A DNA stretch of 64,000 bases from Streptomyces sp. NBC_01298. Lineage in GTDB: Bacteria; Actinomycetota; Actinomycetes; Streptomycetales; Streptomycetaceae. The DNA lies in the NCBI RefSeq assembly GCF_035978755.1, contig NZ_CP108416.1:62001-126000 (forward strand), in the 5' to 3' direction. The translations under genes and the position numbers were made by a program. Under the pieces are notes generated by a model. That model ran no database searches. It was given only the letters and a program-made list of their open reading frames with translations, and was not told the origin of the DNA. Shown here one piece after another: positions 27,309 through 63,909 of this stretch; the stretch's first letter is position 1, and each line of letters starts with the position of its first letter.

Positions 27309-27378
27309 GGAGCCCTCCATTCGAAGGCTGAAGTGGCGGGGGGGGGGAGAGAGAGCGCGCGCGCGAATACGGAAGGGG

Positions 27379-34346: not shown

Positions 34347-35621
<1,275 letters not shown>

Positions 35622-43927: not shown

Positions 43928-43950
43928 GAGCGGTACTCCTTCTGTGACTG

Positions 43951-46325: not shown

Positions 46326-46357
46326 GGAGCGGCGCCCCCACGGGGGAGCGCCGCTCC
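46326..46357. terminator. Bidirectional terminator between RibD-like gene and aroA
   Basis: Stem GGAGCGGCGC/GCGCCGCTCC with an inner CCCC/GGGG extension (46326-46357), between two convergent genes. Confidence 0.85.
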
Positions 46358-46364
46358 GTGCGTC

Positions 46365-47648
46365 TCAGCCGAACAGCCGCCGCAGCTCCTCGTGGAACCC
46401 GGGGAAGGTCTTGGCCACGCAGGCCGGGTCGTCGAGGGTGATCCCGGCGGCGCGCAGGCCCAGTACCGAGAAGGACATCGCGATGCGGTGGTCGCGGCGG
46501 CAGTCGATCGTCGCCGGGGCGGGGGTGCCCGGGTGCACGGTGATGCGGTCCGGTCCCTCCTCCACCTCGATGCCCAGTGCGCGGAGGTTCTCCGCTACCG
46601 CGGCGATCCGGTCGGACTCCTTCAGCCGGGCGTGCGCGATGCCCGTGATGGTGACCGGGGCGTCCGCGAGCGGGGCGATCGCGGCCATCGTCATGAAGGT
46701 GTCCGAGATATCGCCCATGTCGACGGTGAATCCGCCGCGCAGCGCGCCGGTGCCCGTGACCTCGGTCCAGTTGGCGGTCGTGGTGACCCGGGCGCCGGCC
46801 TGCCGCAGCACCTCCACGAAGGCGGTGTCGCCCTGCAGGCTGCCCTCGCCCAGCGCCCGGACCCGTACGGTACGGCCGGTGACGGCGGCCGCCGCGAAGA
46901 AGTACGAGGCGGTCGAGGCGTCCGGCTCGATGTCGAGGTCGGTGGGCCGGTAGCCGCCCGGGTGGACCGTGATCGCGCTGCCCTCCTCCTCGACCCGGGC
47001 ACCGAACTGCCGCATCAGGGCCAGGGTCATGTCCACGTACGGACGGCTGACCAGCCGCGGCACGTCCACCGTGAGCGGCCCGCCCATCAGCGGGGCGGCC
47101 ATCAGCAGCCCGGAGAGGTACTGGCTGCTCAGCCCGGAATCCAGCTCGATGCGGCCCCCGGCCAGCCCCCGCGCGGTCAGGGTGAAGGGCAGGCCCGTAC
47201 CGCGCACCCTCGCCCCGAGCCCGGTGAGCGCCTCCAGCAGCGGCCCGAGCGGGCGCGCCCGCAACTGGTCGGAGCCGTCGAAGGCGATCTCCCCGCGCCC
47301 GGTGGCCGCGAAGGGCGGCAGGAAGCGTGCCGCGGTGCCGGCGTCGGCGCACCAGACCCGGCCGGGGCCGGCCGGTCCGGTGCCGCGCCCGGTGACCTCC
47401 CAGACCTCGCCGGAGCCGTCGCCGTAGCCGGAGCCGTCCCCGTACCCGTAGCCGCTGTCGCCGATGTCGCGGACCCCGGTGCCCAGGTCCGTCAGCGCGG
47501 CCCGGAAGGCGAGGGTGTCGTCGCTGACCAGGGGCGCGCCGAGGCGGCTGCTGCCGGGGGCGGCGGCCGCGAGGAGCAGCGCCCGGTTGGTGATGCTCTT
47601 GGACCCGGGTATCCGGGCCTCCAGTACGGGAGTTGTCACGCCGCTCAT
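46365..47648 (-). CDS. aroA: 5-enolpyruvylshikimate-3-phosphate synthase
   Basis: A 427-residue EPSP synthase. It carries the N-terminal PGSKSITNRALLLAA, the DAGTAARFL motif (usually NxGTxxR), DSGLSSQYLSGLLMA, and LKESDRIAAVAENLRALG plus DHRIAMSFSVLG near the end. It makes 5-enolpyruvylshikimate 3-phosphate from shikimate 3-phosphate and PEP. An insertion near residue 65-80 repeats GYGDGSG, encoded by imperfect tandem repeats. ATG 47648 overlaps the transketolase stop (ATGA). It is the last gene of the precursor operon and a paralogue of the expected housekeeping gene. Confidence 0.94.
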   Translation of the reverse strand: MSGVTTPVLEARIPGSKSITNRALLLAAAAPGSSRLGAPLVSDDTLAFRAALTDLGTGVRDIGDSGYGYGDGSGYGDGSGEVWEVTGRGTGPAGPGRVWCADAGTAARFLPPFAATGRGEIAFDGSDQLRARPLGPLLEALTGLGARVRGTGLPFTLTARGLAGGRIELDSGLSSQYLSGLLMAAPLMGGPLTVDVPRLVSRPYVDMTLALMRQFGARVEEEGSAITVHPGGYRPTDLDIEPDASTASYFFAAAAVTGRTVRVRALGEGSLQGDTAFVEVLRQAGARVTTTANWTEVTGTGALRGGFTVDMGDISDTFMTMAAIAPLADAPVTITGIAHARLKESDRIAAVAENLRALGIEVEEGPDRITVHPGTPAPATIDCRRDHRIAMSFSVLGLRAAGITLDDPACVAKTFPGFHEELRRLFG

Positions 47649-49771
47649 CGTACGGAGCCTCTGCGCTGGGCCCGCTCGAAGCTCGCGCGGGCCGCCGCCG
47701 CCACCTTCGGCGCCGTCAGGCCGTGGAGTTCGTACAGGGACTGGTACGGGGCGGAGGCACCGAAGGAGTCGATGCCCAGCGAGGTGCCGGCCGCGCCGAC
47801 CAGGGCGTACCAGCCGAGGCTGGACCCGGCCTCGACGGAGACCCGGGCGGCCACATCCGTGGGGAGCACCTCCTCCCGGTAGGCCTCCTCCTGTGCCTGG
47901 AACCACTCCAGGCAGGGCATGGACACCACCCGGGTGGCGAGGCCCCCGTCCTGGAGGATGCGGCGGGCGTCGAGCGCGATGGGCACCTCGCTGCCGGTGG
48001 CGATGAGGATGGCCTCGGGGCGCCCGCCCTCGGCCTCGGCCAGGACGTACCCGCCGCGCGCGGCGCCCTCTGCGGGGGACAGCCCGCTCTCCTCGGTGCG
48101 CTCCAGCACGGGCAGGTTCTGCCGGGACAGGCACAGGCCCGCCGGGCGGTCGTCGTTCTCCAGGATGGTGCGCCAGGCGACGACGGTCTCGTTGGCGTCG
48201 GCGGGCCGGACCACGTCCAGGCCGGGGATGGCGCGCAGCGACCAGAGGTGCTCGATGGGCTGGTGGGTGGGGCCGTCCTCGCCGAGGCCGATGGAGTCGT
48301 GGGTCCAGACGTAGGTGACGGGCAGCTTCATCATGGCCGCGAGGCGCACGGCCGGCCGCATGTAGTCGGAGAACACCAGGAAGGTGCCGCCGTAGGGGCG
48401 GGTCCCGCCGTGCAGGGCGATGCCGTTGAGGATCGCGCCCATGGCGTGCTCGCGGATGCCGAAGTGCAGGGTCCGCCCGTACCGGTGGCCGGAGTACGCC
48501 TCCGTCGCCAACTCCTCGGGGACGAAGGAGGGTTCGCCCTTCATCGTGGTCAGGTTGGACTCGGCGAGGTCCGCGGAGCCGCCCCACAGTTCGGGCAGGA
48601 CGGGGGCCAGGGCGTTCAGCACCTCCCCGGACGCCTTGCGGGTGGCCATCTGGCCGCCCCCGGCGAACACCGGCAGGCTCTCCTGCCAGCCCTCGGGCAG
48701 CCGGCGCTCCGAGAGCCGGTCGAAGAGCTCGGCGCGCCCGGGGTTGAGGGCGCGCCAGTCGGCGAGGGTCTTGTCCCACTGGCGGTGGGCCTCGGCGCCG
48801 CGGTCGGCGACCCGGCGGGCGTGGGCCAGGACCTCGTCGGGGACCTGGAAGGAGAGCGAGGGGTCGAGGCCCATCGCCGCCTTGGCGGCGGCGGCCTCCT
48901 CGGCGCCGAGGGCGGATCCGTGGATGCCGCCGGTGTTGCGCTTCTTCGGCGCGGGCCAGCCGATGATCGTGCGCAGCGATACCAGGGAGGGCCGGTCGGT
49001 GGTCTCCCGGGCGGTGACGAGCGCCCGGTTCAGGGCCTCGACATCCTCGGTGTACTCCCCGCCCGCCGTCCAGTCGACCTCCTGCACGTGCCAGCCGTAC
49101 GCCCGGTAGCGGGCGAGGGTGTCCTCGGAGTGCGCGATCTGCCGGTCGTCCTCGATGGAGATGCGGTTCTCGTCGTAGAGAACGACGAGGTTGCCGAGGC
49201 GCTGGTGTCCGGCCAGCGAGCTGGCTTCGTGCGCGACGCCCTCCTCCAGGTCTCCCTCGGAGGCGATGGCCCAGATGGTGTGGTCGAAGGGGGAGGCGCC
49301 GGGCGCGGCCTCCGGGTCGAACAGGCCGCGCTCGCGCCGGGCCGCCATGGCCATGCCCACCGCGTTGGCGAGGCCCTGGCCGAGGGGGCCGGTGGTGGTC
49401 TCCACGCCCGGGGTGTGCCCGTACTCGGGGTGCGCGGGGGTCAGACTGCCCTCGGTGCGCAGGCCCTTGAGATCGTCGAGGGTGAGCCCGTAGCCCGACA
49501 GGTAGAGCTGCGTGTAGAGGGTCAGGCTGGCGTGGCCGCAGGAGAGCACGAACCGGTCCCGGCCGGCCCAGCGCGGGTCCCGGGGGTCGTGCCGCAGCAG
49601 CCGCTGGAAGAGCAGGTAGGCGGCCGGCGCGAGGCTCATGGCGGTGCCGGGGTGTCCGTGCCCGGCCGCCTCGACCGCGTCCACGGTCAGCGCGCGGGCG
49701 ACCTCGACGGCCCGGCGGTCGGCGTCCCCCCAGAGCAGGGCGGGCGCCTGCGGGGCGGTGGCGACGGTCAT
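47645..49771 (-). CDS. tkt: Transketolase
   Basis: A complete 708-residue transketolase. It has GHGHPGTAMSLAPAAYLLFQ, the thiamine-diphosphate motif ASEGDLEEGVAHEASSLAGH, the pyrimidine-domain FGIREHAMGAILNG, THDSIGLGEDGPTHQPIEHL, and a C-terminal domain with IATGSEVPIALDARRIL. It produces erythrose 4-phosphate, a substrate of DAHP synthase. Its placement between aroB and aroA shows a precursor-supply role. ATG 49771 follows AGGAAGG; a 205-bp gap with no gene separates it from aroB. Confidence 0.95.
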   Translation of the reverse strand: MTVATAPQAPALLWGDADRRAVEVARALTVDAVEAAGHGHPGTAMSLAPAAYLLFQRLLRHDPRDPRWAGRDRFVLSCGHASLTLYTQLYLSGYGLTLDDLKGLRTEGSLTPAHPEYGHTPGVETTTGPLGQGLANAVGMAMAARRERGLFDPEAAPGASPFDHTIWAIASEGDLEEGVAHEASSLAGHQRLGNLVVLYDENRISIEDDRQIAHSEDTLARYRAYGWHVQEVDWTAGGEYTEDVEALNRALVTARETTDRPSLVSLRTIIGWPAPKKRNTGGIHGSALGAEEAAAAKAAMGLDPSLSFQVPDEVLAHARRVADRGAEAHRQWDKTLADWRALNPGRAELFDRLSERRLPEGWQESLPVFAGGGQMATRKASGEVLNALAPVLPELWGGSADLAESNLTTMKGEPSFVPEELATEAYSGHRYGRTLHFGIREHAMGAILNGIALHGGTRPYGGTFLVFSDYMRPAVRLAAMMKLPVTYVWTHDSIGLGEDGPTHQPIEHLWSLRAIPGLDVVRPADANETVVAWRTILENDDRPAGLCLSRQNLPVLERTEESGLSPAEGAARGGYVLAEAEGGRPEAILIATGSEVPIALDARRILQDGGLATRVVSMPCLEWFQAQEEAYREEVLPTDVAARVSVEAGSSLGWYALVGAAGTSLGIDSFGASAPYQSLYELHGLTAPKVAAAARASFERAQRRGSVR

Positions 49772-49976
49772 GACGGGCCTTCCTGTTCGGGGGATTCGGA
49801 TACGGGTGTGCGTGCGGGTCCCGCGGCTCCCACCGCTTCCGCGCGTACGGGGCCTGCGGTGCGTTCGGCTGCTGCGCCCCCGCCGGCCCACCCCGCCGGC
49901 CGGACCGATCCGCCGTGGCGGACCGCGCGGGCACGCCGGACGGCGCGGGCACGGGCGTAGCGGACGGGGGCCCGCT

Positions 49977-51068
49977 TCACCGGGAGATCCGCTCGTAGGC
50001 GGCCCGGAGCAGGTCCTCGTCCGGGGCGGTGAGCAGGGCGGGGCGGCCGATGGCGTCGAGCACGACGAACCGCAGCCGGTTGCCCCGGGTCTTCTTGTCG
50101 ATGCCCATCGCGTCGCGCAGCGGGGCCCAGGCCCCGGCGTGGGTGGTGGGCAGGCCGGCGGCGGCGAGGAGGGTGCGGTGGCGGTCGGCGTCGGCGGCGG
50201 ACAGCCGGCCGTCGAGCCGGGCGAGTTCGGCGGCGAAGACCATGCCGGCGGCCACCGCGTGACCGTGCCGGACCCGGTAGCCGGCGACCCGCTCGATGGC
50301 GTGGCCCAGCGTGTGCCCGTAGTTGAGGTGCTCGCGGCGGCCGTCCTCCCGGAAGTCCTCGGTGACGACCTCCGCCTTGACGCGGATGGCGCGCTCCACG
50401 AGCTCCCGGGTGTGGACGGGCCCGGCGGGGTCCTCCTCGACCAGGCGCAGGATCTCCGGGTCGGCGATGAACCCGGCCTTGATCACCTCGGCGAGGCCGC
50501 TGACGTAGTCGGCGGGCGGCAGGGTGTCCAGCAGGTCCAGGTCGCACAGCACCCCGGCGGGCGGGTGGAAGGCGCCGACCAGGTTCTTGCCCTGGGGCAG
50601 GTTCACGGCGGTCTTCCCGCCGATGGCGGCGTCGACCATGCCGAGCAGGGTGGTCGGGACGAGCACCAGCCGCACGCCGCGCAGCCACCCGGCGGCGGCG
50701 AACCCGGCGAGGTCGGTGGTGGCGCCGCCCCCGACGGCCACGACGGCGTCGGAGCGGGTGAACCCGGCGTCGGCGAGGGCCCGCCACAGGCCGGTCACGA
50801 CGGTCATGTCCTTGGCGGCTTCGCCCTCGGGCACTTCCAGCGAGACGACGACGCGTCCCTCGTCGTTGAGTTCCCGCGCGATCCGCCGGGCGGTCGCCAG
50901 CAGCGTGCGGGAGTGCACGACGGCCACCCGCAGCGGTTCGGAGCCCAGTACGCGCCCGGTCTCACCGGTCAGCCCGTGACCGACGACGACCTCGTAGGGA
51001 CGCTCGCCCCCGACCGTGATCCGGGTGCTCCCCGCCAGCGCCGGCGTGTTCAGCGTCGGGGCGCTCAC
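49977..51068 (-). CDS. aroB: 3-dehydroquinate synthase
   Basis: A 363-residue AroB with NAD motif [17 protein letters not shown], the metal-site region [36 protein letters not shown] and [16 protein letters not shown] near the end. It turns DAHP into 3-dehydroquinate. GTG 51068 overlaps the chorismate synthase stop (GTGA). The K-T-A-V and GHTLGH signatures fit the true dehydroquinate synthases rather than the amino- or sugar-cyclising relatives. Confidence 0.93.
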
Positions 51069-52252
51069 CGGACGGCCAGGTTCTCGAGGTAGCCCCGGTG
51101 GTTGCGGGCGGTCTCGGCGAGGGAGTCCCCGCCGAACTTCTCCAGCGCGGCGTGCGCGAGGACCAGCGCCGTCATCGCCTCGGCCACGACGGCCGCGGCG
51201 GGCACCGCGCAGACGTCGGAGCGCTGGTGGTGGGCGACGGCCGGCTCGCCGGTGGCGACGTCGATGGTGGCCAGGGCCCGCGGCACGGTGGCGATGGGCT
51301 TCATGGCGGCGCGCACCCGCAGCGGTTCGCCGGTGGTCATCCCGCCCTCGACCCCGCCGGAGCGGGCGGTGCGGCGGCGGACGGCCCCCTGCCCGTCCCG
51401 CTCGATCTCGTCGTGCGCGAGGGAGCCGGGGACCTTGGCTAGGCCGAAGCCGTCGCCGAACTCCACGCCCTTGATGGCCTGGATGCCCATGAGGGCGGCC
51501 GCGAGCCGGGAGTCGACGCGCCGGTCGCCGTGGACGTAGCTGCCCAGGCCCGGCGGAAGTCCGTACGCGAGCACCTCGACGACCCCGCCGAGGGTGTCGC
51601 CGTTCTCGTGGGCCCGGTCGATCTCGGCGACCATCGCGGCGGAGGCCTCCGGGTCCAGGCAGCGCACCGGGTCGGCGTCCACGCGCTCGGTGTCGTACGG
51701 CTCCGGCACCAGTCCCTCGGGTGCGACGGCCGCGCCGAGCGAGACGACGTGGCTGACGATCGTGATCCCGTACGCCTGCTTGAGGAAGGCCCGGGCGACT
51801 TCCCCGACGGCGACCCGGGCGGCGGTCTCGCGGGCGCTGGCCCGCTCCAGGACCGGGCGGGCGTCGTCGAATCCGTACTTCTGCATCCCGGCGAGGTCGG
51901 CGTGGCCGGGGCGGGGGCGCGAGAGCGGGGCGTTGCGCGCCCGGCCGGCCAGCACCTCCGGGTCCACCCCGTCGGCGGCCATCACCGTCTCCCACTTGGG
52001 CCATTCGGTGTTGCCGACCTGGATCGACACCGGTCCGCCCTGGGTGAGGCCGTGGCGGACACCGCCGAGGAAGGTCACCTCGTCCCGCTCGAAGGCCATC
52101 CGGGCGCCCCGGCCGTGGCCGAGGCGGCGGCGGGCGAGGGAGTCGGCGACCGCCTTGGTGGAGATCTCCACGCCGGCGGGCAGGCCTTCGAGGACGGCGG
52201 TGAGGGCGGGGCCGTGCGATTCGCCCGCGGTGAGCCATCGCAAAGTACTCAA
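51065..52252 (-). CDS. aroC: Chorismate synthase
   Basis: A 395-residue chorismate synthase with [52 protein letters not shown] and [17 protein letters not shown]. It converts EPSP to chorismate with reduced FMN. TTG 52252 is the start, behind GAGGATCACCC. It is coupled to aroB. The 132-bp gap upstream contains a hairpin with arms CGGATCCCCGT and ACGGGGATCCG. Confidence 0.94.
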
Positions 52253-52384
52253 GGGTGATCCTCTGTCATGCGGGGTGGTGGGCCGGCGTGGTGGGCGGTC
52301 GGACCCGGCCGGTGGGGCGGCCGGATCCCCGTGGAGGGGGGAGGGATGGCGGAAGGGGTCGTACGGGGATCCGCGGGCGCGGGG

Positions 52385-53512
52385 TCAGACGCCCACGGCC
52401 ACCGGCGGAGCCTCGATCGGCCCCATCCGCTGGACCCGCCAGCCGGCTCCCATCAGGCCCTGGGACAGGGTGACGGCGGTCCCGCGGGCGACCATCAGCT
52501 CGACCAGGCCGCTCTCGTCGCCGGGCGAGTGGTCAATGGTCATGTCCTCGATGTTGACGGCGAGTTCGGCGGCGTTCGCGAGGAGCCGGGCGAGTTCGCC
52601 GGGCTGGTCCCCGATCAGGACGCGGACCGGAGCGCAGGCGGGCACCGGGTGCCCGTGCTTGCCGGGGATGCGGTCGCGGCCGCTGAGGCCGCGGCCGAGC
52701 AGGTCGGCCAGGAGCGTGGTGCCCTGGGCGCGTTCGTCGGCGTCGTCGGTGGCGAGGCCCCGCAGGGCGGCCACGGTGACCTGGAGGTCCTCGGCGAGCT
52801 CGGTCAGCACGTCGGCGACCGCGGTGGCGTTGGACTCCAGGATGTCGCTCCACAGCCGGGGGTCGCCCCCGGCGATCCGGGTCACGTCGCGCAGCCCCTG
52901 TCCGGCCAGCCGGCAGGCGTCCTCCGGGAGGTGCTGGAGGCGGGCGGCCATCAGCGAGGCCACCACGTGCGGGGTGTGGGAGACGCGGGCCACGGCCCGG
53001 TCGTGGACGTCGCTGTCCATGACGACGGGCATCGCCCCGCACAGGGAGACCATCATGAGCGCCATGTTGAGGGCGTCGCGGCTGGTGTGGGCCGTGGGGG
53101 TCAGCACCCAGGAGCGGCCCTCGAAGAGGGTGGCGCAGGCGGCGAGCGGGCCGGAGCGCTCCCGGCCGGCCATCGGGTGTCCGCCGATGAAGCTGACGGG
53201 ATCGGCGCCGGCGGCGAGGACCCCGATCTCCGGTTCGGTCTTGACGCTGGCGACGTCGGTGTACGAGCGGGCCAGGCCCAGCCTCTGCTGGGCGGCGAGC
53301 ACGGTGCCGACCTGGGCCGGCGGGACGGCCAGTACGGCCAGGTCCACGGTGGTCTTCGGGGCGCCGACGGTGCCGGCGCCGAGCGAGGCGGCGGTGCGGG
53401 CGGCCGAGTCGTTCGCGTCCATGAGGTGGACGGCCACCCCTCGGCGGGACAGGGCCAGTGCGATGGAGGTTCCGATGAGGCCCGTCCCCACCACCGCGGC
53501 GGAGCGGATCAT
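52385..53512 (-). CDS. tyrA: Prephenate dehydrogenase with C-terminal ACT domain
   Basis: A 375-residue TyrA with NAD motif VVGTGLIGTSIALALSRRG, the catalytic-region FIGGHPMAGRERSGPLAA, SHTPHVVASLMAARLQ and GLRDVTRIAGGDPRLWSDIL, and an ACT domain at about 300-360 (VRVLIGDQPGELARLLANAA). It makes 4-hydroxyphenylpyruvate from prephenate and may be feedback-regulated by tyrosine through the ACT domain. ATG 53512 overlaps the chorismate mutase stop (ATGA). Confidence 0.93.
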   Translation of the reverse strand: MIRSAAVVGTGLIGTSIALALSRRGVAVHLMDANDSAARTAASLGAGTVGAPKTTVDLAVLAVPPAQVGTVLAAQQRLGLARSYTDVASVKTEPEIGVLAAGADPVSFIGGHPMAGRERSGPLAACATLFEGRSWVLTPTAHTSRDALNMALMMVSLCGAMPVVMDSDVHDRAVARVSHTPHVVASLMAARLQHLPEDACRLAGQGLRDVTRIAGGDPRLWSDILESNATAVADVLTELAEDLQVTVAALRGLATDDADERAQGTTLLADLLGRGLSGRDRIPGKHGHPVPACAPVRVLIGDQPGELARLLANAAELAVNIEDMTIDHSPGDESGLVELMVARGTAVTLSQGLMGAGWRVQRMGPIEAPPVAVGV

Positions 53513-53886
53513 CTGGATTCCCCGGCGGTGACCAGGTCTCGGCGCAGGGCGGCCGCACCGCCCAGGTAGACGTGCTTGATCTCGCGCTTGGACAGTTCCG
53601 TCTCGGCGTACGCGAGGATCCGCACGACCCGGGGCAGGGCCCCGGCGATGTCCAGTTCCTGCGCGCACATCATCGGCACGTCGGTCACGCCCAGTTCGCG
53701 GGCGGCGACCGCCGGGAACTCGCTGACCAGGTCGGGGGTCGCCGTGAAGAACAGGCTGACCAGCTCCTCCTGGTCGAGCCCGTTGGCGGCGAGCATCTCC
53801 TGGAACAGCGTTCGGACCCCGTCCAGCAGGTGGCCCCGCTCGTCGACTTCCAGCTGGATGGCACCGCGCAGGGCACGCACGGACAT
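53509..53886 (-). CDS. Chorismate mutase, AroH type
   Basis: A 125-residue monofunctional AroH-class chorismate mutase (MSVRALRGAIQLEVDERGHL, LDQEELVSLFFTATPDLVSE, FPAVAARELG, VPMMCAQELDIAGALPRVVR). It rearranges chorismate to prephenate, the substrate of the coupled prephenate dehydrogenase. AroH-type mutases are trimeric and are less common in Streptomyces than AroQ enzymes. The start is ATG 53886. Confidence 0.93.
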   Translation of the reverse strand: MSVRALRGAIQLEVDERGHLLDGVRTLFQEMLAANGLDQEELVSLFFTATPDLVSEFPAVAARELGVTDVPMMCAQELDIAGALPRVVRILAYAETELSKREIKHVYLGGAAALRRDLVTAGESR

Positions 53887-53934
53887 GGGCTTCTCCCTTT
53901 GCTTCAGGACGGTACGTCGATCGGTCGCTCGGGA

Positions 53935-55326
53935 TCAGGCGGCGGCCGGTACGGCTTCGGGGCGGGCCGCGCCGGCCGTCGCGCGACCGCGGTACAGCTC
54001 GGCGACCCGGAAGGCCAGGTCGAGCGACTGCTTGCGGTTCAGCCGCGGGTCGCAGGCGGACTCGTAGCGCTGTCCGAGGTCGGTGAGCCGGACCTCGGCG
54101 CCGCCTCCGACGCATTCGGTGACGTCGTCGCCGGTCAGCTCGATGTGGATGCCGCCGGGGTGGGTGCCGAGCGCGCGGTGGACCTCGAAGAAGCCGGTGA
54201 CCTCGTCGAGGACGTCGTCGAAGTGCCGGGTCTTGTGGCCGCTGGGCGCCTCGAAGGTGTTGCCGTGCATCGGGTCGCAGATCCACGCGGGTCGCGCGCC
54301 CTCGGCGGTGACCTTGCCGATCAGCTCGGGGAGGATCTCGCGGATGTTGCGGGCGCCCATCCGGGTGATGAAGGTGAGGCGGCCGGGTTCGCGCTGCGGG
54401 TCCAGCTTGTCGATGAGGCGCAGGGCCTCGTCGGCGGAGGTCGTGGGGCCGAGCTTGACTCCGATGGGGTTCTGCACCGTGGAGGCGAACTCGATGTGGG
54501 CGCCGTCCAGTTGACGGGTGCGCTCACCGATCCAGATCATGTGGCCGGAGACGTCGTACAGCTGGCCGGTACGGGCGTCGACGCGGGTGAGCGCGGCCTC
54601 GTAGTCCAGCAGCAGGGCCTCGTGGCTGGCGAAGATCTCGGAGGAGTGGACGGCGGCCGGGTCGGCGCCGCAGGCGGCGAGGAAGGTCAGGGCGTAGTCG
54701 ATGTCCCCGGCGAGGCGCTCGTAGCGCTCACCGACCGGGGAGGCGGCGACGAAGTCGCGGTTCCACTCGTGGACCTGGCGCAGGTCGGCGTAGCCGCCGG
54801 TGGTGAAGGCCCGTACGAGGTTCAGGGTGGCGGCGGAGGAGTGGTACATCCGCTTGAGCCGCTCCGGGTCCGGGGTGCGGGACTCGGGCGTGAAGGCGAG
54901 GCCGTTGACGGAGTCACCGCGGTAGACGGGCAGTTCGACACCATCGCGGATCTCGGTGGGCTTGGAGCGGGGCTTGGAGTACTGCCCGGCGATCCGGCCG
55001 ATCTTCACCACGGGCACGGAGCTCGCGTAGGTGAGGACGGCGGCCATCTGGAGCAGCGTCTGCACCTTGTCGCGGACCTGGTCGGAGCTGACGGCGTCGA
55101 AGGTCTCGGCGCAGTCCCCGCCCTGGAGGACGAAGGCCTCGCCCCGGGCGACGTCGGCGAGCCGGTCGCGCAGCCGGTCGCACTCGCCGGCGAAGACCAG
55201 GGGCGGGAAGGAGGCGAGGTCGTCGAGCGCGGAGCGCAGGGCGACCGGATCGGGGTAGGACGGCTGCTGGGCGGCGGGCAGCAGCCGCCAGGAGTCGACG
55301 GCCGTGGCGTGCGTGGCGAGGGTCAT
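53935..55326 (-). CDS. 3-deoxy-D-arabino-heptulosonate 7-phosphate synthase, class II
   Basis: A 463-residue class II (plant-type) DAHP synthase. Features are FVLQGGDCAETFDAVSSDQV, VVKIGRIAGQYSKPRS, HMIWIGERTRQLDGAHIEFA, NPIGVKLGPTTSADEAL, FITRMGARNIREILPELIGK, CDPMHGNTFEAPSGHKTR and HIELTGDDVTECVGG. It condenses erythrose 4-phosphate and PEP, the entry step. ATG 55326 has only a weak ribosome site. It is the first of seven precursor genes and stands behind an intergenic hairpin, so it may have its own promoter. Confidence 0.95.
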   Translation of the reverse strand: MTLATHATAVDSWRLLPAAQQPSYPDPVALRSALDDLASFPPLVFAGECDRLRDRLADVARGEAFVLQGGDCAETFDAVSSDQVRDKVQTLLQMAAVLTYASSVPVVKIGRIAGQYSKPRSKPTEIRDGVELPVYRGDSVNGLAFTPESRTPDPERLKRMYHSSAATLNLVRAFTTGGYADLRQVHEWNRDFVAASPVGERYERLAGDIDYALTFLAACGADPAAVHSSEIFASHEALLLDYEAALTRVDARTGQLYDVSGHMIWIGERTRQLDGAHIEFASTVQNPIGVKLGPTTSADEALRLIDKLDPQREPGRLTFITRMGARNIREILPELIGKVTAEGARPAWICDPMHGNTFEAPSGHKTRHFDDVLDEVTGFFEVHRALGTHPGGIHIELTGDDVTECVGGGAEVRLTDLGQRYESACDPRLNRKQSLDLAFRVAELYRGRATAGAARPEAVPAAA

Positions 55327-55406
55327 GGTGGCTGTGCCTCGATCGGTTTCGGTGGGAAAGGGAAGAGGTGTGGGCCTGTCGCCGCCCGGGATGGCGGCCC
55401 CGGGAG

Positions 55407-55446
55407 CCGGGGGTCCGTACGGTGGTGCGGCCGTACGGACCCCCGG
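55407..55446 (-). terminator. Hairpin between the exporter and DAHP synthase genes
   Basis: A perfect 16-bp stem (arms 55407-55422 and 55431-55446, 8-nt loop) downstream of the MFS gene stop. It may end transcription of the HpaB-to-MFS group or reduce read-through into the seven shikimate genes. Confidence 0.75.
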
Positions 55447-55483
55447 TGGGCAATCCGTTGCGGGTGCCTGTCTCGCCAGGGGC

Positions 55484-56752
55484 CTAGACCGGCTCGTGGA
55501 CCCCGGAAGGAACGGCCTCGGGTGCCTGGGCTCCGGGCCCGGCTTCCTCACCGGCGGCCTTGTGGCCCTTGGTGAGGCCGAAGAAGAGCAGACCGCCGAC
55601 GCCGAGGACGGCGATGACGATGCCCATCGGAACCGCGCTGTCCTCGCCGGCCAGGCCGACGAGCGGCACCACGGCCGCGCCGATCAGGTGCTGGGACAGG
55701 CCCAGCAGCGCGGCGGCCGAACCGGCCACGTCGCCGTGGTCCTGGAGGGCCAGCGCGAAGGAGTTCGGCAGGACGAGGCCGACGCTGGAGACGACCAGGA
55801 AGAGCGCGACGAGCAGCGGGGCCAGACCGGCGTCGGTGAGGACGACGGCGAGCAGCCCGAGGCCGCCGACCGCGGAGACGGCCAGACCGGTGGCGAGCAG
55901 GGCGCGCGGGCCGGTCTTGTGCACGATGCGGCCGCTGACCTGCGCGGCGATGACCAGGCCGAGGGCGTTGACGCCGAAGACGACGCTGTACGCCTGCGGG
56001 GACATTCCGTGGATGGACTGGAGCACGAAGGTCGAGCCGGAGATGTAGGCGAACATCGCGGCGAAGGCGAAGCCGCAGGCCAGGTTGTAGCCGACGAACA
56101 CCTTGTCGCCGAGCAGCCGGCGGAAGATCGGGCCGGTGGCCTTGAGGCCGCCGTGCACGCGCCGTTCGGCGGGGTGCGTCTCGGGCAGGGCGCCGGCGAC
56201 GCCGATGAGCATCAGGGCGCCGATGATGGCGAGGGCGATGAAGATGCCCTTCCACGAGGTGACGAGCATCAGCTGGCCGCCGAGGACGGGGGCCAGGATC
56301 GGCGCGATGCCGGTGATGAGCATCAGCATCGCGAAGAACCGGGCCGCGGCGGGCCCGGTGTGCCGGTCGCGCACGACCGCGGAGGCGATGACGATGCCGG
56401 TGGCGCCGCCGAGGCCCTGGAGGGCGCGCAGCCCGACCAGCGTCCAGATGTTGGGGGCGAAGGCGCACAGCAGGGCGGTGACGGCGAACAGCGCCAGACC
56501 CGCGATGAGCGGCCGGCGGCGGCCGAGCGCGTCGCTGACGGGTCCGGCGATGAGCTGGCCGATGCCGAGGCCCAGCAGGCAGGCGGTGAGGCTGAGCTGG
56601 GCCGCCGAGGCGCTGGTGCTCAGGTCCTCGGCGATCTGCGGAAGGCCCGGCATGTAGGCGTCGTTGGCCAGCGGGCCGAGAGCGGTGAGTGCACCGAGGA
56701 TGATCGCGAACCGGACGATGCCGGCGCTCTTCGGTGTGGCGGATGAAGTCAT
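55484..56752 (-). CDS. MFS exporter, Bcr/CflA type
   Basis: A 422-residue major facilitator with 12 predicted helices and the Bcr/CflA pattern (ALGPLANDAYMPGLPQIAED, LGIGQLIAGPVSDALGRRRP, ATGIVIASAVVRDRHTGPAA, APILAPVLGGQLM). Such transporters export drugs and pathway products with proton exchange. It lies 29 bp downstream of the NAD(P)-binding reductase gene and is the probable exporter and self-protection gene of the pathway. Confidence 0.93.
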   Translation of the reverse strand: MTSSATPKSAGIVRFAIILGALTALGPLANDAYMPGLPQIAEDLSTSASAAQLSLTACLLGLGIGQLIAGPVSDALGRRRPLIAGLALFAVTALLCAFAPNIWTLVGLRALQGLGGATGIVIASAVVRDRHTGPAAARFFAMLMLITGIAPILAPVLGGQLMLVTSWKGIFIALAIIGALMLIGVAGALPETHPAERRVHGGLKATGPIFRRLLGDKVFVGYNLACGFAFAAMFAYISGSTFVLQSIHGMSPQAYSVVFGVNALGLVIAAQVSGRIVHKTGPRALLATGLAVSAVGGLGLLAVVLTDAGLAPLLVALFLVVSSVGLVLPNSFALALQDHGDVAGSAAALLGLSQHLIGAAVVPLVGLAGEDSAVPMGIVIAVLGVGGLLFFGLTKGHKAAGEEAGPGAQAPEAVPSGVHEPV

Positions 56753-56781
56753 GTGTCTGATCCCCTCCGGGGGACGCGGAA

Positions 56782-57429
56782 TCAGTAGGCGACGGTGATG
56801 CGGGCCTGGATCGCGTCGCCGCGCTCCAGTTCGTCCGCGAAGGCGACCGCGTAGTCGGCGATGCTGATCTGGCTCTTGCCTTCGGCGTCCACCAGGAGCT
56901 GCTCACCACCGACGCGATAGGTCCCGGTGCGCGGACCGGGCTCGATCTGGGCGGCGGGGGAGATGAACGTCCAGTCCAGGGAGCCGGCCTGGCGGTAGAG
57001 GGCGAGCGCCTCGCTCTGGGCGAGCGCGTTCTGCTTCCACATGGCCGGGAAGTTCGGGTTGTCGATGACCTTGACGCCCGGGGCGACCTCCAGGCTGCCG
57101 GCGCCGCCGAGGACCACGACACGGCGTACGCCGCTGCGGGTGAGGCCCTCGATGAGCGCGTTGGCCGCACCGACGATGATCTTGTGGTCGTCGTCGACGC
57201 CGAGCTTGGGGCCGACGGCCGAGGCGACGGCGTCGTAGCCCGCCGCGGACAGGTCGGCCACGGTGTCCGCGTCGGTGGCGTCACCGGCGATGACCTTGAG
57301 GCCTTCGTGGCCGTTGCCCGCGATCTCGCCGGTGCGGGTCACGCCGGTGACGGCGTGGCCGCGGGAGAGCAGTTCGCCGGCGATGGCGCTGCCGATGTGT
57401 CCGCTGGCTCCGAAAAGCAGGATGTTCAT
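56782..57429 (-). CDS. NAD(P)-binding oxidoreductase, atypical SDR (NmrA-like)
   Basis: A 215-residue atypical short-chain dehydrogenase: NILLFGASGHIGSAIAGELL gives the Rossmann motif, followed by VIAGDATDADTVADLSAAGY, RRVVVLGGAGSLEVAPG and LDWTFISPAAQIEPG. Its substrate is unknown. The setting suggests reduction of a carbonyl in the tyrosine-derived product. ATG 57429 is the start. Confidence 0.88.
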   Translation of the reverse strand: MNILLFGASGHIGSAIAGELLSRGHAVTGVTRTGEIAGNGHEGLKVIAGDATDADTVADLSAAGYDAVASAVGPKLGVDDDHKIIVGAANALIEGLTRSGVRRVVVLGGAGSLEVAPGVKVIDNPNFPAMWKQNALAQSEALALYRQAGSLDWTFISPAAQIEPGPRTGTYRVGGEQLLVDAEGKSQISIADYAVAFADELERGDAIQARITVAY

Positions 57430-57488
57430 GGTGGTGCCTCTTCTTCCTCGGTGATTCTTCGGGGGTGGTGCCGGACGAGGAGCGCGGG

Positions 57489-58301
57489 CTAGTCCTCTTC
57501 GAGGAAGTCGGGCTGCTCGCGGATGATCTCGTCCCAGAGCAGCTGGAAGCTGAACCAGCCCAGCTGCTCGTTGCCGAAGCCGTCCCCAGCGGCGACGGCC
57601 TGCTCATGGGTGAAGCTCTTGGGCGTGCCCGCGGCCCTGGCGAGCAGCTGCACCTGGGCGCAGCTGTCGTAGGTGAAGAACCAGTGCACGGCCTCGTCGA
57701 GCGATCCGCCGACGGTTATCAGGCCGTGGTGGCGCAGCAGGATCGCGCGGTTGTCGCCCAGCTTCTCCGCGATGTCGCGGCCGAGTTCGGCCGAGACGGA
57801 GGGGCCTTCGTACTCCTCGTAGAGGACCTGGCGGTTGTAGAAGGCCGACGATTCCTGGTCGATGGGGTCCAGCAGGCGGCCCAGGGCGCCCAGCGCGCGG
57901 GAGTGCGCGGTGTGGCCGTGGGCGGCCGCCGTGGCACCCGGCTGCATCTCGTGGATGGCCGAATGGATGACGAACGCACTGGGGTTGACCCGGTGCTTAC
58001 CCTCTACGACGTTGCCCGCCGAGTCCACGCAGATAAGGTCGGCGACGCGGACCAGGTTGAAGGAGACGCCGAAGGGGTTCACCCAGAACCGGTCCTCGTG
58101 CTCCGGGTCGCGGACCGAGATGTGGCCCGAGATGCCCTCACCGAAGCCGTACTTCCCGAACAGCCTCAGCGCGGCGGCGAGCCGCTGCTTGCGGTGGCGG
58201 CGCGTCTCCTCGTGGGTGGCGAAGACCGGCTCGCTGGGGATCGGCAGGCCGGTGTGCGTGTCCGCCAGGTAGGCGGGCCGGTCGGTCTCGGTGACGCTCA
58301 T
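57489..58301 (-). CDS. Class II aldolase/adducin family protein
   Basis: A 270-residue protein with the class II aldolase fold: FGEGISGHISVRDPEHED (glycine-rich loop), the metal-binding AAHGHTAHSRALGALG (His-x-His) and LLRHHGLITVGGSLDEAV (second His pair). The zinc-binding His residues are present, so it may be an active aldolase or decarboxylase acting on a hydroxy-acid intermediate. Its exact reaction is unknown. The next genes on the same strand are an oxidoreductase and an exporter. Confidence 0.88.
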   Translation of the reverse strand: MSVTETDRPAYLADTHTGLPIPSEPVFATHEETRRHRKQRLAAALRLFGKYGFGEGISGHISVRDPEHEDRFWVNPFGVSFNLVRVADLICVDSAGNVVEGKHRVNPSAFVIHSAIHEMQPGATAAAHGHTAHSRALGALGRLLDPIDQESSAFYNRQVLYEEYEGPSVSAELGRDIAEKLGDNRAILLRHHGLITVGGSLDEAVHWFFTYDSCAQVQLLARAAGTPKSFTHEQAVAAGDGFGNEQLGWFSFQLLWDEIIREQPDFLEED

Positions 58302-58409
58302 GCTCGGGGGTCCTCATCTCCGGAATCTCCGGGTCGTCTTCCGGTGTCGGTGCGGGTACGGCTACGGGTACTGGTGCGGGCGGCGGTACGGATGCGGGTG
58401 CGGGCGGCG

Positions 58410-59954: not shown

Positions 59955-60127
59955 GTGTCAGTCACCTATCAATTCGTGGAAGGCGCGGGGTCGTCGTGCG
60001 CCGGCCTTGCTGTCCGCGATCACGGTGGCCCTTTCCTCGCCTACTCCGGGGATTCAGTGGGAGCCGCCGGCCACCCCCGGTGCGGCGGGGGCGGAACCGG
60101 TCGGCCAAGGGTTTGGGTCTTTGCGAC

Positions 60128-61171
60128 TCAGGCGGCGGAGTTCTTGAAGTTCTTCATCGAGACGGTGAAGTCCCCGCGATTGGCGCGGTAGTCGATGCAG
60201 TACTCCTGCGGGTACCAGCCGCCTATCTGCCACTGCTGCGGCTGCTTTATGGGCCAGCAGCGGCTCGGGTTGACCCCGGCGGCTATGCCCTCGAACCAGG
60301 CCTTCGTGATCATCGGCTCGAGGAAGCTGATCTTGGCGTCGTAGGCGCCGTATATGAAGGTCTGGGTGAAGGCGATCGAGCTCCACTCGGGCGAGTTGAG
60401 GTCGATCAGGTGGTTGCCCATGGCCGCCTCGGCCACGTTGTTGTTCACGTAGTCCGCCGGCAGGTACTGCGGGGGGATCGGCTCGATGGCCGTCGCGTAG
60501 TCGTCGCAGTTGATGGCCAGGCCGCAGGGGCCGCTGCGGATCGCGTCGCGCTCCGCCTTGGACTGCGTGTAGAAGTGGAAGTCGAAGTGCGGGGTGTCGT
60601 AGATGTGCTCCGGCCCGTGGCCCATCGGGTTGAAGTTGACCAGGGCCCACTTGAGCGGCATGCCGGGCAGCGCGGTGAGCTGCGAGGGAAGGTCCAGCGG
60701 GCGCTCGTGGCCGCCGACGCACTCGGTGTGCTGGTCGACCGAGCCGTCACCGTTCACGTCGAAGCAGTGGTGCCCGTCGGTCATGGTGGTCGGCAGGTTG
60801 GTCAGCATGGACTGGGGGAATACGATGCCGACGGTCTGCGGCTTCACGCCGTTGATCTGCGCGTACGTGCGCACCGTGCCGTTGCCCAGGGCGCTCGGGG
60901 TGCCGTAGGAGGAGCACGGGCCCGCGTAGGAGAGCGTCTCCTGGAGCAGGACCTGCGAGGCCCACTGCGCGACCTTGACGGTGCGCTCGCGGGTCGGGGC
61001 GTCCCGCGTCACCAGGCACACGGTCACCGGGCCCGACGTACGCGCCGCGGCCTCCGCGGTGGAGTCCGTGGCCTGGGCCGGGTCGCCCGGCAGGATCAGC
61101 AGGGTCAGGGCCGATATGGCCAGGGCAGCTCCGAGGAGCACCCGCCAGCTCAGCAGCTTCTTCGCGCGCAC
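60128..61171 (-). CDS. Secreted DUF5602 (TTHB210-like) protein
   Basis: A 347-residue protein with a Sec signal peptide (about 1-33, LLGAALAISALTLLILPGDP then AQA). The central part has GHGPEHIYDTPHFDFHFYTQ, which I recognise as the TTHB210-like DUF5602 domain with its His-rich strand. GTG 61171 begins 1 bp after the flavin reductase stop, so the two are translationally coupled. The function of the family is unknown. An exported protein inside a small-molecule operon is unusual; it could bind the product or a metal outside the cell. Confidence 0.8.
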   Translation of the reverse strand: MRAKKLLSWRVLLGAALAISALTLLILPGDPAQATDSTAEAAARTSGPVTVCLVTRDAPTRERTVKVAQWASQVLLQETLSYAGPCSSYGTPSALGNGTVRTYAQINGVKPQTVGIVFPQSMLTNLPTTMTDGHHCFDVNGDGSVDQHTECVGGHERPLDLPSQLTALPGMPLKWALVNFNPMGHGPEHIYDTPHFDFHFYTQSKAERDAIRSGPCGLAINCDDYATAIEPIPPQYLPADYVNNNVAEAAMGNHLIDLNSPEWSSIAFTQTFIYGAYDAKISFLEPMITKAWFEGIAAGVNPSRCWPIKQPQQWQIGGWYPQEYCIDYRANRGDFTVSMKNFKNSAA

Positions 61172-61172
61172 T

Positions 61173-61670
61173 TCACACCTGTTCCAGTTCGAATCTGTGG
61201 AATCCGCCCTGAAGGAAGATCAGGGGGGTCTGGGTCTCGCGGGCACCCATGGCGACGACTTCGCCGATGACCATCACGTGGTCGCCGGCCACCACGTGGT
61301 CGCGCAGGCTGCACTCCATCCAGGCAGCCGCGTCGAACAGGAGCGTCCCGGTGGCCTCGCCCGGAGCCCCGGCCACCTCGGTCAGCGCCTGGTCGCGCTC
61401 GGGCCGCCGGCGCGCGAACGCGCGGGCCGTCGACTCGCCCTCGGCGCCGAGGATCGAGATCCCCACGACCCCGGTGCGCAGCAGCTCGGCGAAGAACTCC
61501 GAGTCGTGACGGAAGCTCAGGGACACCAGCGGCGGTTCCAGGGAAACGGAGGTGAGCGAGTTGACGGTGATCGCGTTGTGGGTGCGCGCGCCGTCCTTGT
61601 CGGTGTAGGTGCTGACGACGCACACCCCGGTGGCGAAGGAACGCATCACATCGCGCAGGTCGTGGTTCAT
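61173..61670 (-). CDS. Flavin reductase (HpaC/two-component monooxygenase reductase type)
   Basis: A 165-residue flavin reductase (MRSFATGVCVVSTYTDKDGA, THNAITVNSLTSVSLEPPLV, SLSFRHDSEF, WMECSLRDHVVAGDHVMVIG). It should supply reduced FAD to the HpaB-type hydroxylase encoded just upstream. ATG 61670 is the start. It is coupled to the secreted DUF5602 gene by a 1-bp gap. Confidence 0.92.
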   Translation of the reverse strand: MNHDLRDVMRSFATGVCVVSTYTDKDGARTHNAITVNSLTSVSLEPPLVSLSFRHDSEFFAELLRTGVVGISILGAEGESTARAFARRRPERDQALTEVAGAPGEATGTLLFDAAAWMECSLRDHVVAGDHVMVIGEVVAMGARETQTPLIFLQGGFHRFELEQV

Positions 61671-61750
61671 GGCCGGGCCTCTCTGCTGGGCGCGGACGGG
61701 TGCGCGCGGCGCTTCGGCCGCGGGCACCCGTCCGTACGCGGGCTTGACGG

Positions 61751-63289
61751 TCAGCTGTCCTGGGCCCAGCGGCCGCGGGTCCAGCCGTCGAGGTCGTAGT
61801 CGTCCAGGGCCTTCTGGACGAGGTCGCCGTAGTTGTCGAGCAGACCGGCGCCGCGCGACCAGTTCAGCGTGTCGAGGCGCACCTGGTCGGGACCGCCGGC
61901 GTAGTTGAGCTCGTACAGCTCGTGGCGGGCGCCGAACTCGGTGCCGATCGCGTCCCAGGCCAGCTTGAAGAGCTTGGTGCGCTCCTCGGCGGTGGCGCCG
62001 GTGCCGCGGTAGTAGCGGTCGAGCAGCGGACGCAGCTCGGGGTGCTGGAGGTCCTTGGCGCTGGAGGGGGTCATCAGCAGCGCGCCCGCGAGGTGCTCCT
62101 CGAAGAAGCGGTGCGTGCGCTCCCAGCTGAGCGGGGCGAGCGCCCGGTAGCCGGCCGAGTAGTCCATGCGCGGCAGGACGGTGCCGGCCGGGCCGGCCTC
62201 CGGGTCCAGGGCCATGGCGGTGGTGACGGCCCAGGTCTGGTGGCGCCAGGCGAGCAGTTCGCCGAGGCCGGCCTGGACGCCGCGGAAGCCGTCCGTGCCG
62301 TTGATGCGGGTGCCCCGGTCGAGGACGCCCGCCATGAACTCCAGCTTGACCGACATGCGGATCGCGCCCTGGAAGAAGCCGCGGGAGAGCAGGCCGGAGC
62401 GCGGGAAGTACTGGTGGATCTTCTCGGTGTCCCGGTAGATCAGGACGTTCTCCCACGGGATGAACGCCTTGTCGAAGACCAGCACCGCGTCGTTCTCGTC
62501 GAACCGGCTGGAGAGCGGGTTGTCGAACGGGCTGGTGGCCTTGGACTCGTAGGAGGTGCGGCAGACGACCTTCATGCCGGGGGTGTTCAGCGGGGCCAGG
62601 AAGGCCAGCGCCATGTCCTCGGCCTTGCCCTTTTCGAGGTTGGCCAGGTGGATCTGGCCGACGAAGGCGACGTTGCTCAGCGCCGAGGCGGTGGCCATGA
62701 GCTTGGCGCCCTCGACGACGATGCCGTCCTCGCGCTCCTCGACGACCTTGAGGTAGACGTCGCGGATCTCGTGCGCCGACTTGTTGCGGTCGACGGGCGG
62801 GTTGACGATCGCGTGGCTGATCGAGAGGCCCTGGCGGGCGTACTTCTCGTACCAGGCGCGGGCGTTGTCGCCGAAGGGCTCGTAGAAGTCGTGGGTGACG
62901 GCCAGGCCGGCCATGAACGACGCCTTGTAGTCGGGCGTGCGGTTCATGAAGCCGTAGCTCAGGCGGGCCCAGTGCTCGATGGCGTCGCGGGCCTTGATGA
63001 GGTCCTCGCCCGAGTGCGCCGGGGTGAAGAAGCGGTGGACGCGGTACCCCGTGTACCGGTCGACCGTCGTCATCAGGTCCTTGGTGTCCGGGTGGTGGAG
63101 CGCGTCGTAGAGGTGCGCGGTCGACCGCGCGGCCATGGCGAAGGCCGGGTGCGTCGTCACGTCCTTGACGAGCTCGCCGTCCACGAAGACCTGGCGACCG
63201 TCGCGCAGGCTCTCCAGGTAGGAGTCGCCCGTCATGAGGTCGTTCGGAGCCTCGCCGGCCGACTGATCCACTATCGGGACCTGACCCAT
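61751..63289 (-). CDS. 4-hydroxyphenylacetate 3-hydroxylase (HpaB) family oxygenase
   Basis: A 512-residue FADH2-dependent phenol hydroxylase. Landmarks are SYLESLRDGRQVFVDGELVK, RNKSAHEIRDVYLKVVEERE, DGIVVEGAKLMATASALSNV, CRTSYESKATSPFDNPLSSR, FDENDAVLVFDKAFIPWENV and LGELLAWRHQTWAVTTAMAL. HpaB-type enzymes add oxygen ortho to a phenol, giving catechols. Here 4-hydroxyphenylpyruvate, tyrosine or a product of them is the likely substrate. ATG 63289 follows AGAGGA. It heads the seven-gene tailoring group. Confidence 0.93.
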   Translation of the reverse strand: MGQVPIVDQSAGEAPNDLMTGDSYLESLRDGRQVFVDGELVKDVTTHPAFAMAARSTAHLYDALHHPDTKDLMTTVDRYTGYRVHRFFTPAHSGEDLIKARDAIEHWARLSYGFMNRTPDYKASFMAGLAVTHDFYEPFGDNARAWYEKYARQGLSISHAIVNPPVDRNKSAHEIRDVYLKVVEEREDGIVVEGAKLMATASALSNVAFVGQIHLANLEKGKAEDMALAFLAPLNTPGMKVVCRTSYESKATSPFDNPLSSRFDENDAVLVFDKAFIPWENVLIYRDTEKIHQYFPRSGLLSRGFFQGAIRMSVKLEFMAGVLDRGTRINGTDGFRGVQAGLGELLAWRHQTWAVTTAMALDPEAGPAGTVLPRMDYSAGYRALAPLSWERTHRFFEEHLAGALLMTPSSAKDLQHPELRPLLDRYYRGTGATAEERTKLFKLAWDAIGTEFGARHELYELNYAGGPDQVRLDTLNWSRGAGLLDNYGDLVQKALDDYDLDGWTRGRWAQDS

Positions 63290-63630: not shown

Positions 63631-63909
63631 TCAGGCCGCGGGACGGGTGTGGCTGGCGGACGCCGCGTCGATACAGGCGGCCTCGGCTATCAGAATGATC
63701 TTCTCCACGTGCGGCAGCAGTCGCATGCCCGCCTCGGTGAGCTGGACCCGGCCGCCGGCGCGATGGAACAGCTCGGCCCCGATGTAGTCCTCGAGGTTCT
63801 TGATGTGGGCGGTGACGCTGGGCTGCGAGTAGTGGAGGTTGCGAGCGGCGCGAGTGAAGCTCATCTCGGCGGCCACTTCACGGAACGAGCGTAACTGCTG
63901 GAACTGCAC
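63631..63909 (-). CDS. LysR-type DNA-binding domain protein without an effector domain
   Basis: A 92-residue protein containing only the LysR winged helix: MQFQQLRSFREVAAEMSFTR, AARNLHYSQPSVTAHIKNLE, GAELFHRAGGRVQLTEAG and the linker helix. LysR regulators normally have about 300 residues; the 200-residue ligand-binding part is absent and TGA follows the linker. GTG 63909 has GGGAG upstream. It lies directly upstream of the HpaB operon. It is either a genuine one-domain regulator or the product of a truncated gene. Confidence 0.8.
   Translation of the reverse strand: MQFQQLRSFREVAAEMSFTRAARNLHYSQPSVTAHIKNLEDYIGAELFHRAGGRVQLTEAGMRLLPHVEKIILIAEAACIDAASASHTRPAA

Follow-up and report, generated by a model that had tools for sequence, protein, structure and literature searches.

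What does an operon make that joins an almost complete aromatic supply route to a set of redox enzymes? The question is raised by a 64,000-nucleotide stretch of Streptomyces sp. NBC_01298 (positions 62,001 to 126,000 of contig NZ_CP108416.1), referred to here as the window, which corresponds to C3:62001-126000 of a 9.7-Mb genome in five contigs (G000). Fourteen genes were called in it from hpaB (63289) to aroA (46365), all on the minus strand. A previous sequence-only reading of this DNA regarded the tailoring enzymes of the operon as unassignable, a view that was not borne out: a flavoprotein, P0001, has the predicted fold of an amino-acid N-hydroxylase, and the neighbouring 'aldolase', AldII, resembles the Fe(II)/O2 oxygenases NovR and TqaM. 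We propose, with a probability of roughly 0.4, that these genes form the core of a secondary-metabolite cluster whose product is an N-oxygenated catechol derived from tyrosine; we infer both the substrate and the product.

The flavoprotein P0001 and its partner AldII

The NAD_binding_9 flavoprotein P0001 (58410..59954, minus strand; C3:120413-121954 on the contig) was analysed from a start codon moved upstream to 59954, so that the Rossmann motif falls inside the protein. The closest named relatives found are from Streptomyces spp. (94-96% identity). Its predicted fold matches that of the aspartate N-hydroxylase FzmM/CreE over 475 residues, comprising the FAD, NADP and helical substrate domains, and P0001 is thus predicted to be, probably, a flavin N-hydroxylase of the FzmM/CreE kind acting on an amino acid. 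The flavin-stacking Trp51 of FzmM corresponds to W43 of P0001, which is present in all 54 in-frame rows, a pairing on which hhalign and two MAFFT runs agree. Arg266 of FzmM was placed opposite R238 (54/54 rows) by hhalign and one MAFFT run, but not by the other MAFFT run, and the hhalign alignment stops short of the aspartate-binding residues Arg409, Arg412, Asn413, Arg416 and Arg577. The family profile of P0001 yielded no sequence match to FzmM/CreE, the likeness consisting of the predicted fold and a few residues. P0001 is also shorter (514 versus about 600 amino acids), and its partner is AldII rather than a CreD-type lyase.

FzmM and CreE are paired with the lyases FzmL and CreD, in fosfazinomycin and cremeomycin, respectively. 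Within the window, no gene of the CreD-type lyase family (PF00206) was found, the nearest on the contig being located at C3:45982-46830, 74 kb from the P0001 gene. About 13 kb to the left of the window, at C3:45514-48979 (L109:3514-6979), a CreE-like N-hydroxylase gene (610 bits to FzmM) adjoins a Lyase_1/ADSL_C protein, and the nearby genes L109.6-12 were read by eye as encoding mevalonate-pathway enzymes; this locus is perhaps a separate, nitrite-using cluster of meroterpenoid type on the same contig.

AldII (57489..58301, minus strand) had been labelled a class II aldolase. The label stands at the level of the Pfam family (PF00596), whereas the function it implies is very probably wrong. 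Among solved chains, AldII scored 198 bits against NovR (9ryg), 186 against 4xxf, 147 against TqaM, 79 against POD and ~60 against FucA, 4xxf being an uncharacterised solved protein which we take to be from Glaciozyma. In an alignment of 38 rows (the window and 37 loci), made in two MAFFT modes with E. coli K-12 FucA as the reference, His128, His130 and His192 of AldII lie opposite His92, His94 and His155 of FucA in every row, and Ala109 occupies the position of the catalytic Glu73 of FucA, likewise in 38/38. That position is held by Ala in NovR and by Gly in TqaM, 9n43 and 4xxf. Since the His triad is kept, Glu73 is missing and the nearest described relatives are NovR and TqaM, AldII is probably an oxygenase that, like these two, uses Fe(II) and O2. 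The portions of the literature consulted describe both NovR/CloR (PMC13111500) and TqaM (PMC12192607) as non-heme iron oxygenases that carry out oxidative decarboxylation.

These observations bear directly on the route originally envisaged, in which a catechol metabolite would arise through a C-C bond step catalysed by an aldolase, together with ordinary redox tailoring. The Pfam labels, the HpaBC pair and the three retained metal-binding His residues of AldII are consistent with such a route, but the loss of Glu73 from all AldII rows, the oxygenase nature of those nearest solved relatives that have a name and a described function and the predicted N-hydroxylase fold of P0001 render it very improbable.

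Within the oxygenase group, AldII is 42% identical to NovR, 42% to the fungal protein 4xxf and 40% to TqaM. Because the tree, which has long branches, does not join AldII to NovR alone, AldII was treated as a subfamily of its own. His206 is invariant in its 38 rows and missing from all five comparison rows, with Trp at this position in NovR, while His60 is common to AldII, TqaM, 9n43 and 4xxf and replaced by Leu in NovR. AldII thus shares with TqaM, an enzyme of fungal 2-aminoisobutyrate biosynthesis, the His triad, the absence of Glu73 and His60; TqaM differs in having TqaL and TqaF as partners, in its organisms and in a substrate unrelated to tyrosine, as far as the consulted part of PMC12192607 extends.

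Recurrence of the pair beside phenol hydroxylases

Related loci were retrieved by means of the flavoprotein, so that all counts given here are conditional on P0001; 52 were fetched (20 and 32), and removal of six duplicates left 46, with the window's own locus excluded. AldII was present in 38 of the 46 loci, and in 32 of the 36 in which the flavoprotein is at least 49% identical to P0001. The two genes were on the same strand in 38/38 loci, with the ends of their matches 40-240 bp apart in 32 loci and 1095-1179 bp apart, with one gene between, in the remaining six.

A phenol ortho-hydroxylase was identified in 33 of the 46 loci, being of the HpaB type in 13, HsaA-like in 14 and a tyrosinase in six; the 13 loci counted as lacking one include L034, which has one just outside its fetched stretch. 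The HsaA-like protein resembles HsaA and the acyl-CoA-dehydrogenase-type 4-hydroxyphenylacetate (4-HPA) hydroxylase, scoring below the cut-offs of that type. No fetched locus carries two hydroxylase types. The genome of L055 has HpaB plus an HsaA-like gene, the latter ~11 kb from its homologue of g27 (an adenylation-domain gene discussed below), so that the exclusion holds per fetched locus and not per genome. That three unrelated enzymes serve a single chemical step argues most strongly for a catechol or o-quinone beside the chemistry of P0001 and AldII, and a catechol is likely to be formed by the cluster. The catechol-containing product that had been suggested for the operon is therefore likely, although that suggestion omitted the probable nitrogen chemistry. 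Nine HpaB-type loci also carry AldII, and these share the short-chain dehydrogenase/reductase (SDR) gene (9/9), the major facilitator superfamily (MFS) transporter gene (9/9) and g55 (8/9) of the operon.

The six loci with P0001, AldII and a tyrosinase (L051, L052, L076, L077, L078 and L083) represent a second type of cluster for the pair, and no aromatic-supply genes were found in their fetched stretches. L051, which was scanned, also has MelC1, a MoaF-like protein and an amino-acid permease. In L036 and L062, the pair lies beside or between large genes taken to encode non-ribosomal peptide synthetases, and L036 encodes an 816-aa fusion of an FMN oxidase and an aminotransferase, of the kind expected for hydroxyphenylglycine.

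The gene content of these loci is relevant to a possible, though rather unlikely, alternative modelled on NovR. Here, AldII would convert 4-hydroxyphenylpyruvate or its 3,4-dihydroxy form, via a mandelate, to 4-hydroxy- or 3,4-dihydroxybenzoate, HpaBC would provide the catechol, an AMP-forming enzyme would activate the acid and the flavoprotein would serve an unrelated step. NovR is the closest solved chain to AldII (42% identity across residues 24-266, with the His triad and Ala at the Glu73 position in common). A prephenate dehydrogenase is encoded in the cluster of AldII, as it presumably also is in the novobiocin cluster, and in 21/46 loci. Its product belongs to the substrate class of NovR, according to the part of PMC13111500 consulted. 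Conversely, P0001 and AldII occur together in 38/46 loci, including the six tyrosinase loci, which lack prephenate dehydrogenase and one of which has the amino-acid permease mentioned above. AldII is no nearer to NovR than to 4xxf or TqaM, and it differs from NovR in carrying His206 and His60 and in its N-hydroxylase-like partner. Furthermore, family profile scans of the 14 operon proteins gave no match to a prenyltransferase family, whereas an aromatic prenyltransferase is, we assume, part of the novobiocin/clorobiocin route.

For the N-oxygenated catechol that we favour, the supply enzymes would raise the flux to 4-hydroxyphenylpyruvate, as their family assignments suggest, with dehydratase, shikimate dehydrogenase and kinase presumably contributed by primary metabolism. 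4-Hydroxyphenylpyruvate would be transaminated to tyrosine, HpaBC would install the catechol, and P0001 would oxidize the alpha-amino group of tyrosine or 3,4-dihydroxyphenylalanine (DOPA) to an N-hydroxyl or oxime. AldII would then cleave or decarboxylate the N-oxygenated arylpropanoid with O2, and the resulting acid may be activated by the McyG/StsA-like adenylation domain at 30.8-32.4 kb, the product being exported by the MFS protein. The order of transamination, ring hydroxylation, N-oxidation and cleavage is not fixable from sequence. A more specific version, which we put forward tentatively and regard as unlikely to hold in full, is that P0001 and AldII form an undescribed two-enzyme module: the N-hydroxylase would bring tyrosine or DOPA to the oxime level and the Fe(II) oxygenase would split it with O2, yielding nitrite or an aryl nitrile or acid. 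Such a module would be a lyase-free alternative to CreE/CreD, coupled to a phenol hydroxylase of whichever of the three types was available in the host.

Nitrite is also central to a quite doubtful alternative, in which P0001 would make an amino-acid oxime and a POD-like AldII would release nitrite and a 2-oxo acid, the nitrite entering a nitroso, diazo or N-N group with the aid of an ANL-type ligase, as in cremeomycin. From the parts of the sources consulted, POD is homologous to class II aldolases and produces nitrite from an oxime (PMC5216522), FzmM-type catalysis may run through an oxime (PMC10404684) and CreM is an ANL enzyme (PMC11705231). AldII shares the class II aldolase family and three His residues with POD, an Fe(II)-dependent reaction of an oxime is conceivable here, and genes of the AMP-binding family are present in the cluster. 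AldII is, however, far from POD, scoring 79 bits (E 3.5e-21) against AfPOD 8il8 compared with 198 bits against NovR; the consulted part of PMC11841055, in which 8il8, 8iqa and 8ix6 are PODs, sets an E value below 1e-60 to AfPOD for the POD group. In addition, g27 is nearest to McyG/StsA, the usual ATP-binding motifs are, by eye, missing from the other ligase-like protein, and a CreE/CreD-like pair is already present elsewhere on the contig.

Several observations weigh against an N-oxygenated catechol as the product. The catalytic-site Asn62 of FzmM is unmatched in P0001, hhalign pairing it with Asp51, and the conserved N58 of P0001 (53/54 rows) lies opposite a Thr in all three alignments. Four loci (L045-L048) combine P0001 with an HpaB-like gene but lack AldII, and the genes around them are of aromatic-catabolism type; the scanned neighbours in L045 are Aldedh, glyoxalase-family and FAA hydrolase genes. 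Three Nocardia loci (L079, L080 and L082), as well as L084, contain P0001 but neither AldII nor a hydroxylase of the three types.

The individual enzymes belong to known kinds. A survey of the open-access literature by titles and abstract openings, with MIBiG and most subscription journals outside its scope, met no characterized cluster with this gene set, nor the pairing of P0001 with AldII or the cluster family. If our proposal is correct, genes labelled 'aldolase' and 'FAD/NAD(P)-binding protein' would be the signature of a cluster family that makes N-oxygenated catechols in Streptomyces, Kitasatospora, Microbispora, Micromonospora and relatives, for which the pair would provide a search handle. 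Such products might bind iron, or their N-O function might be reactive, and AldII would join NovR, TqaM and POD as a further case of an oxygenase reaction carried out on the class II aldolase fold.

Aromatic supply, HpaBC and the remaining operon genes

The fourteen genes of the operon are real and lie on a single strand at the positions originally proposed, separated by gaps of -4 to 205 bp, with a 4-bp overlap in three neighbouring pairs. All seven supply enzymes that had been named were confirmed, five over NCBIfam equivalog cut-offs and AroB and AroC by Pfam gathering scores. They are 5-enolpyruvylshikimate 3-phosphate (EPSP) synthase AroA (46365..47648; TIGR01356, 378.7 bits, cut-off 287), a transketolase for the supply of erythrose 4-phosphate (47645..49771; TIGR00232, 752 bits, cut-off 682), 3-dehydroquinate synthase AroB (49977..51068; PF01761 and PF24621 above cut-off), chorismate synthase AroC (51065..52243; PF01264, 385.6 bits), prephenate dehydrogenase (52385..53512; NF005109, 492 bits, cut-off 397), an AroH-type chorismate mutase (53509..53886; TIGR01796, 134 bits, cut-off 82) and a class II 3-deoxy-D-arabino-heptulosonate 7-phosphate (DAHP) synthase (53935..55326; TIGR01358, 726 bits, cut-off 615), all on the minus strand. 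The score of prephenate dehydrogenase upholds 4-hydroxyphenylpyruvate as the output of the route, and the reported absence of dehydratase, shikimate dehydrogenase and kinase from the operon is corroborated by family profile scans, in which none of the 14 proteins matched the AroD, AroE or AroK families.

A second DAHP synthase copy, 75% identical, is located on contig C1, its match being marked with one TAG, and the genome encodes three more chorismate synthases and five further EPSP-synthase-family matches. In view of these additional copies, the operon looks like a dedicated aromatic supply and not the primary pathway. On contig C1, a chorismate synthase gene accompanies a DAHP-synthase-like gene at both 4.56-4.57 Mb and 1.63 Mb, with an EPSP-synthase-family gene also at 4.56 Mb; these groups are perhaps other aromatic-supply clusters of this genome.

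The HpaBC pair was confirmed at the Pfam level. The HpaB-like protein, a putative FADH2-dependent phenol ortho-hydroxylase (61751..63289, minus strand), has both domains of HpaB-type phenol hydroxylases over cut-off (PF11794 and PF03241), and its best solved chain is 4oo2, which we take to be SgcC (490 bits), followed by scores of 475-478 bits to HPAH chains. Since it falls below both equivalog cut-offs (542 versus 885 bits for TIGR02310 and 281 versus 480 bits for TIGR02309), it is not a standard 4-HPA hydroxylase. Its partner is an HpaC-like flavin reductase (61173..61670, minus strand; PF01613, 113 bits).

The next gene, g55 (60128..61171, minus strand), encodes a protein that looks exported by eye and has DUF5602/TTHB210-like relatives. 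The DUF5602 label is weak for g55 itself (PF18197: E 0.02, 15.9 bits, gathering cut-off 26.6) and finds support among its relatives, 26 of the 120 listed (1438 found; counted by hand) carrying PF18197. His184, His194, Asp196, His198, His253 and Glu284 (A2 numbering, first residue missing) are invariant in the family. The AlphaFold2 model is confident (pLDDT 91), and structure searches with the predicted fold returned no PDB fold match. Among the matches listed, relatives of g55 also derive from Solirubrobacteraceae, Gemmatimonadota and Lysobacter.

The operon is completed by an MFS transporter gene (55484..56752; PF07690, 165 bits) and an NAD_binding_10/NmrA-like reductase gene, the SDR referred to above (56782..57429; PF13460, 91 bits), both on the minus strand. 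A LysR-like gene is situated 341 bp upstream of the operon and encodes a 92-aa protein with only a helix-turn-helix (HTH) domain (63631..63909, minus strand; PF00126 on an 81-aa part, within the 92-aa frame); homologues, called at 87-114 aa, occupy the same position in L033, L034, L035, L037, L042 and L053-L055. Directly past aroA, a hairpin scan detected a terminator-like hairpin of 14 pairs (46326..46357, minus strand); five such sites were found versus 3.1 expected, and the aroA hairpin is favoured by its place and length only.

Extent of the cluster and its surroundings

The operon as previously delimited is incomplete, as the cluster continues to the right of the window and probably also includes 30.8-34.2 kb. 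The rightward continuation was followed in L085 (offset 62000; overlap checked), where L085:2106-4099 (window-equivalent 64106-66099) encodes two proteins, one of 537 aa from the AMP-binding family and one of 127 aa that resembles a C-terminal piece of the ANL family. The 537-aa protein, present in 9/46 loci, lacks the usual ATP-loop and C-terminal Lys motifs (by eye); with both motifs gone and such a partner, the pair is probably a conserved pseudo-ligase, and an active ligase is unlikely. Further right, up to ~71.5 kb window-equivalent, TetR regulator, AfsA-like, cytochrome P450, SDR and epimerase-like genes were identified, with families named via scanned homologues and the epimerase-like gene by eye. 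In L053-L055, the closest relatives, a comparable set is located upstream of hpaB.

To the left, three minus-strand genes probably belong to the cluster: g27, a stand-alone adenylation domain (30767..32440; McyG 363 bits, StsA 356 bits), g28, an S-adenosylmethionine-dependent methyltransferase (32437..33261; PF13649; in L033, L065, L072, L074 and L081), and g29, an AraC regulator (33381..34223; PF12833), assigned by synteny. Their homologues occur near P0001 and AldII in Kitasatospora (L033/L056) and Microbispora (L065, L072 and L081). Of the 13 genomes searched, own included, 12 encode a g27 homologue (E 1e-100); among the six in which it was placed, it lies on the P0001 contig within ~26 kb in G000, G231, G183, G160 and G202, and on another contig in G045. 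The WMPLDH[IV]G stretch of the g27 protein is also present in the McyG and StsA adenylation domains. Unlike these, g27 stands alone; by eye, it retains its ATP-loop and C-terminal Lys. McyG and the matched chain that we take to be StsA presumably load phenylpropanoid or alpha-keto acids, so an acid lacking a free amino group would be a fitting substrate for g27. No carrier protein was detected when small open reading frames between 25 and 73 kb were scanned for motifs, so g27 may serve to form an amide or an ester. A predicted tRNA-Val (33460-33534, plus strand) overlaps the 3' part of the opposite-strand g29.

Three plus-strand genes possibly belong to the same cluster: g30, like glyceraldehyde-3-phosphate dehydrogenase (34614..35621; family by eye; 81% homologues in L033 and L038), g31, like pyridoxamine 5'-phosphate oxidase (35703..36617; PF01243; homologues in L033, L038, L065 and L073), and g32, a HisC-like aminotransferase (36767..37876; NF002878, 516 bits, cut-off 374; homologues in L039, L040 and L041). 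Homologues from this 34.6-37.9 kb group recur in L033 and L038-L041, those of g31 also in L065 and L073. By its family, g32 could convert 4-hydroxyphenylpyruvate to tyrosine.

Elsewhere in the window, look-alike blocks were noted at 25540-28224, 38978-39646 and 42165-44623, with DUF4097 proteins at 27379 and 38978 and similar neighbouring genes that we read as encoding ABC transporters. Two proteins of 222 aa, at 38978 and 43955, are identical in their first 40 residues, which suggests a recent duplication. Finally, the region 20488-23425 harbours genes of the Prim-Pol, D5_N primase and DUF6009 types, such as mobile elements or plasmids carry.

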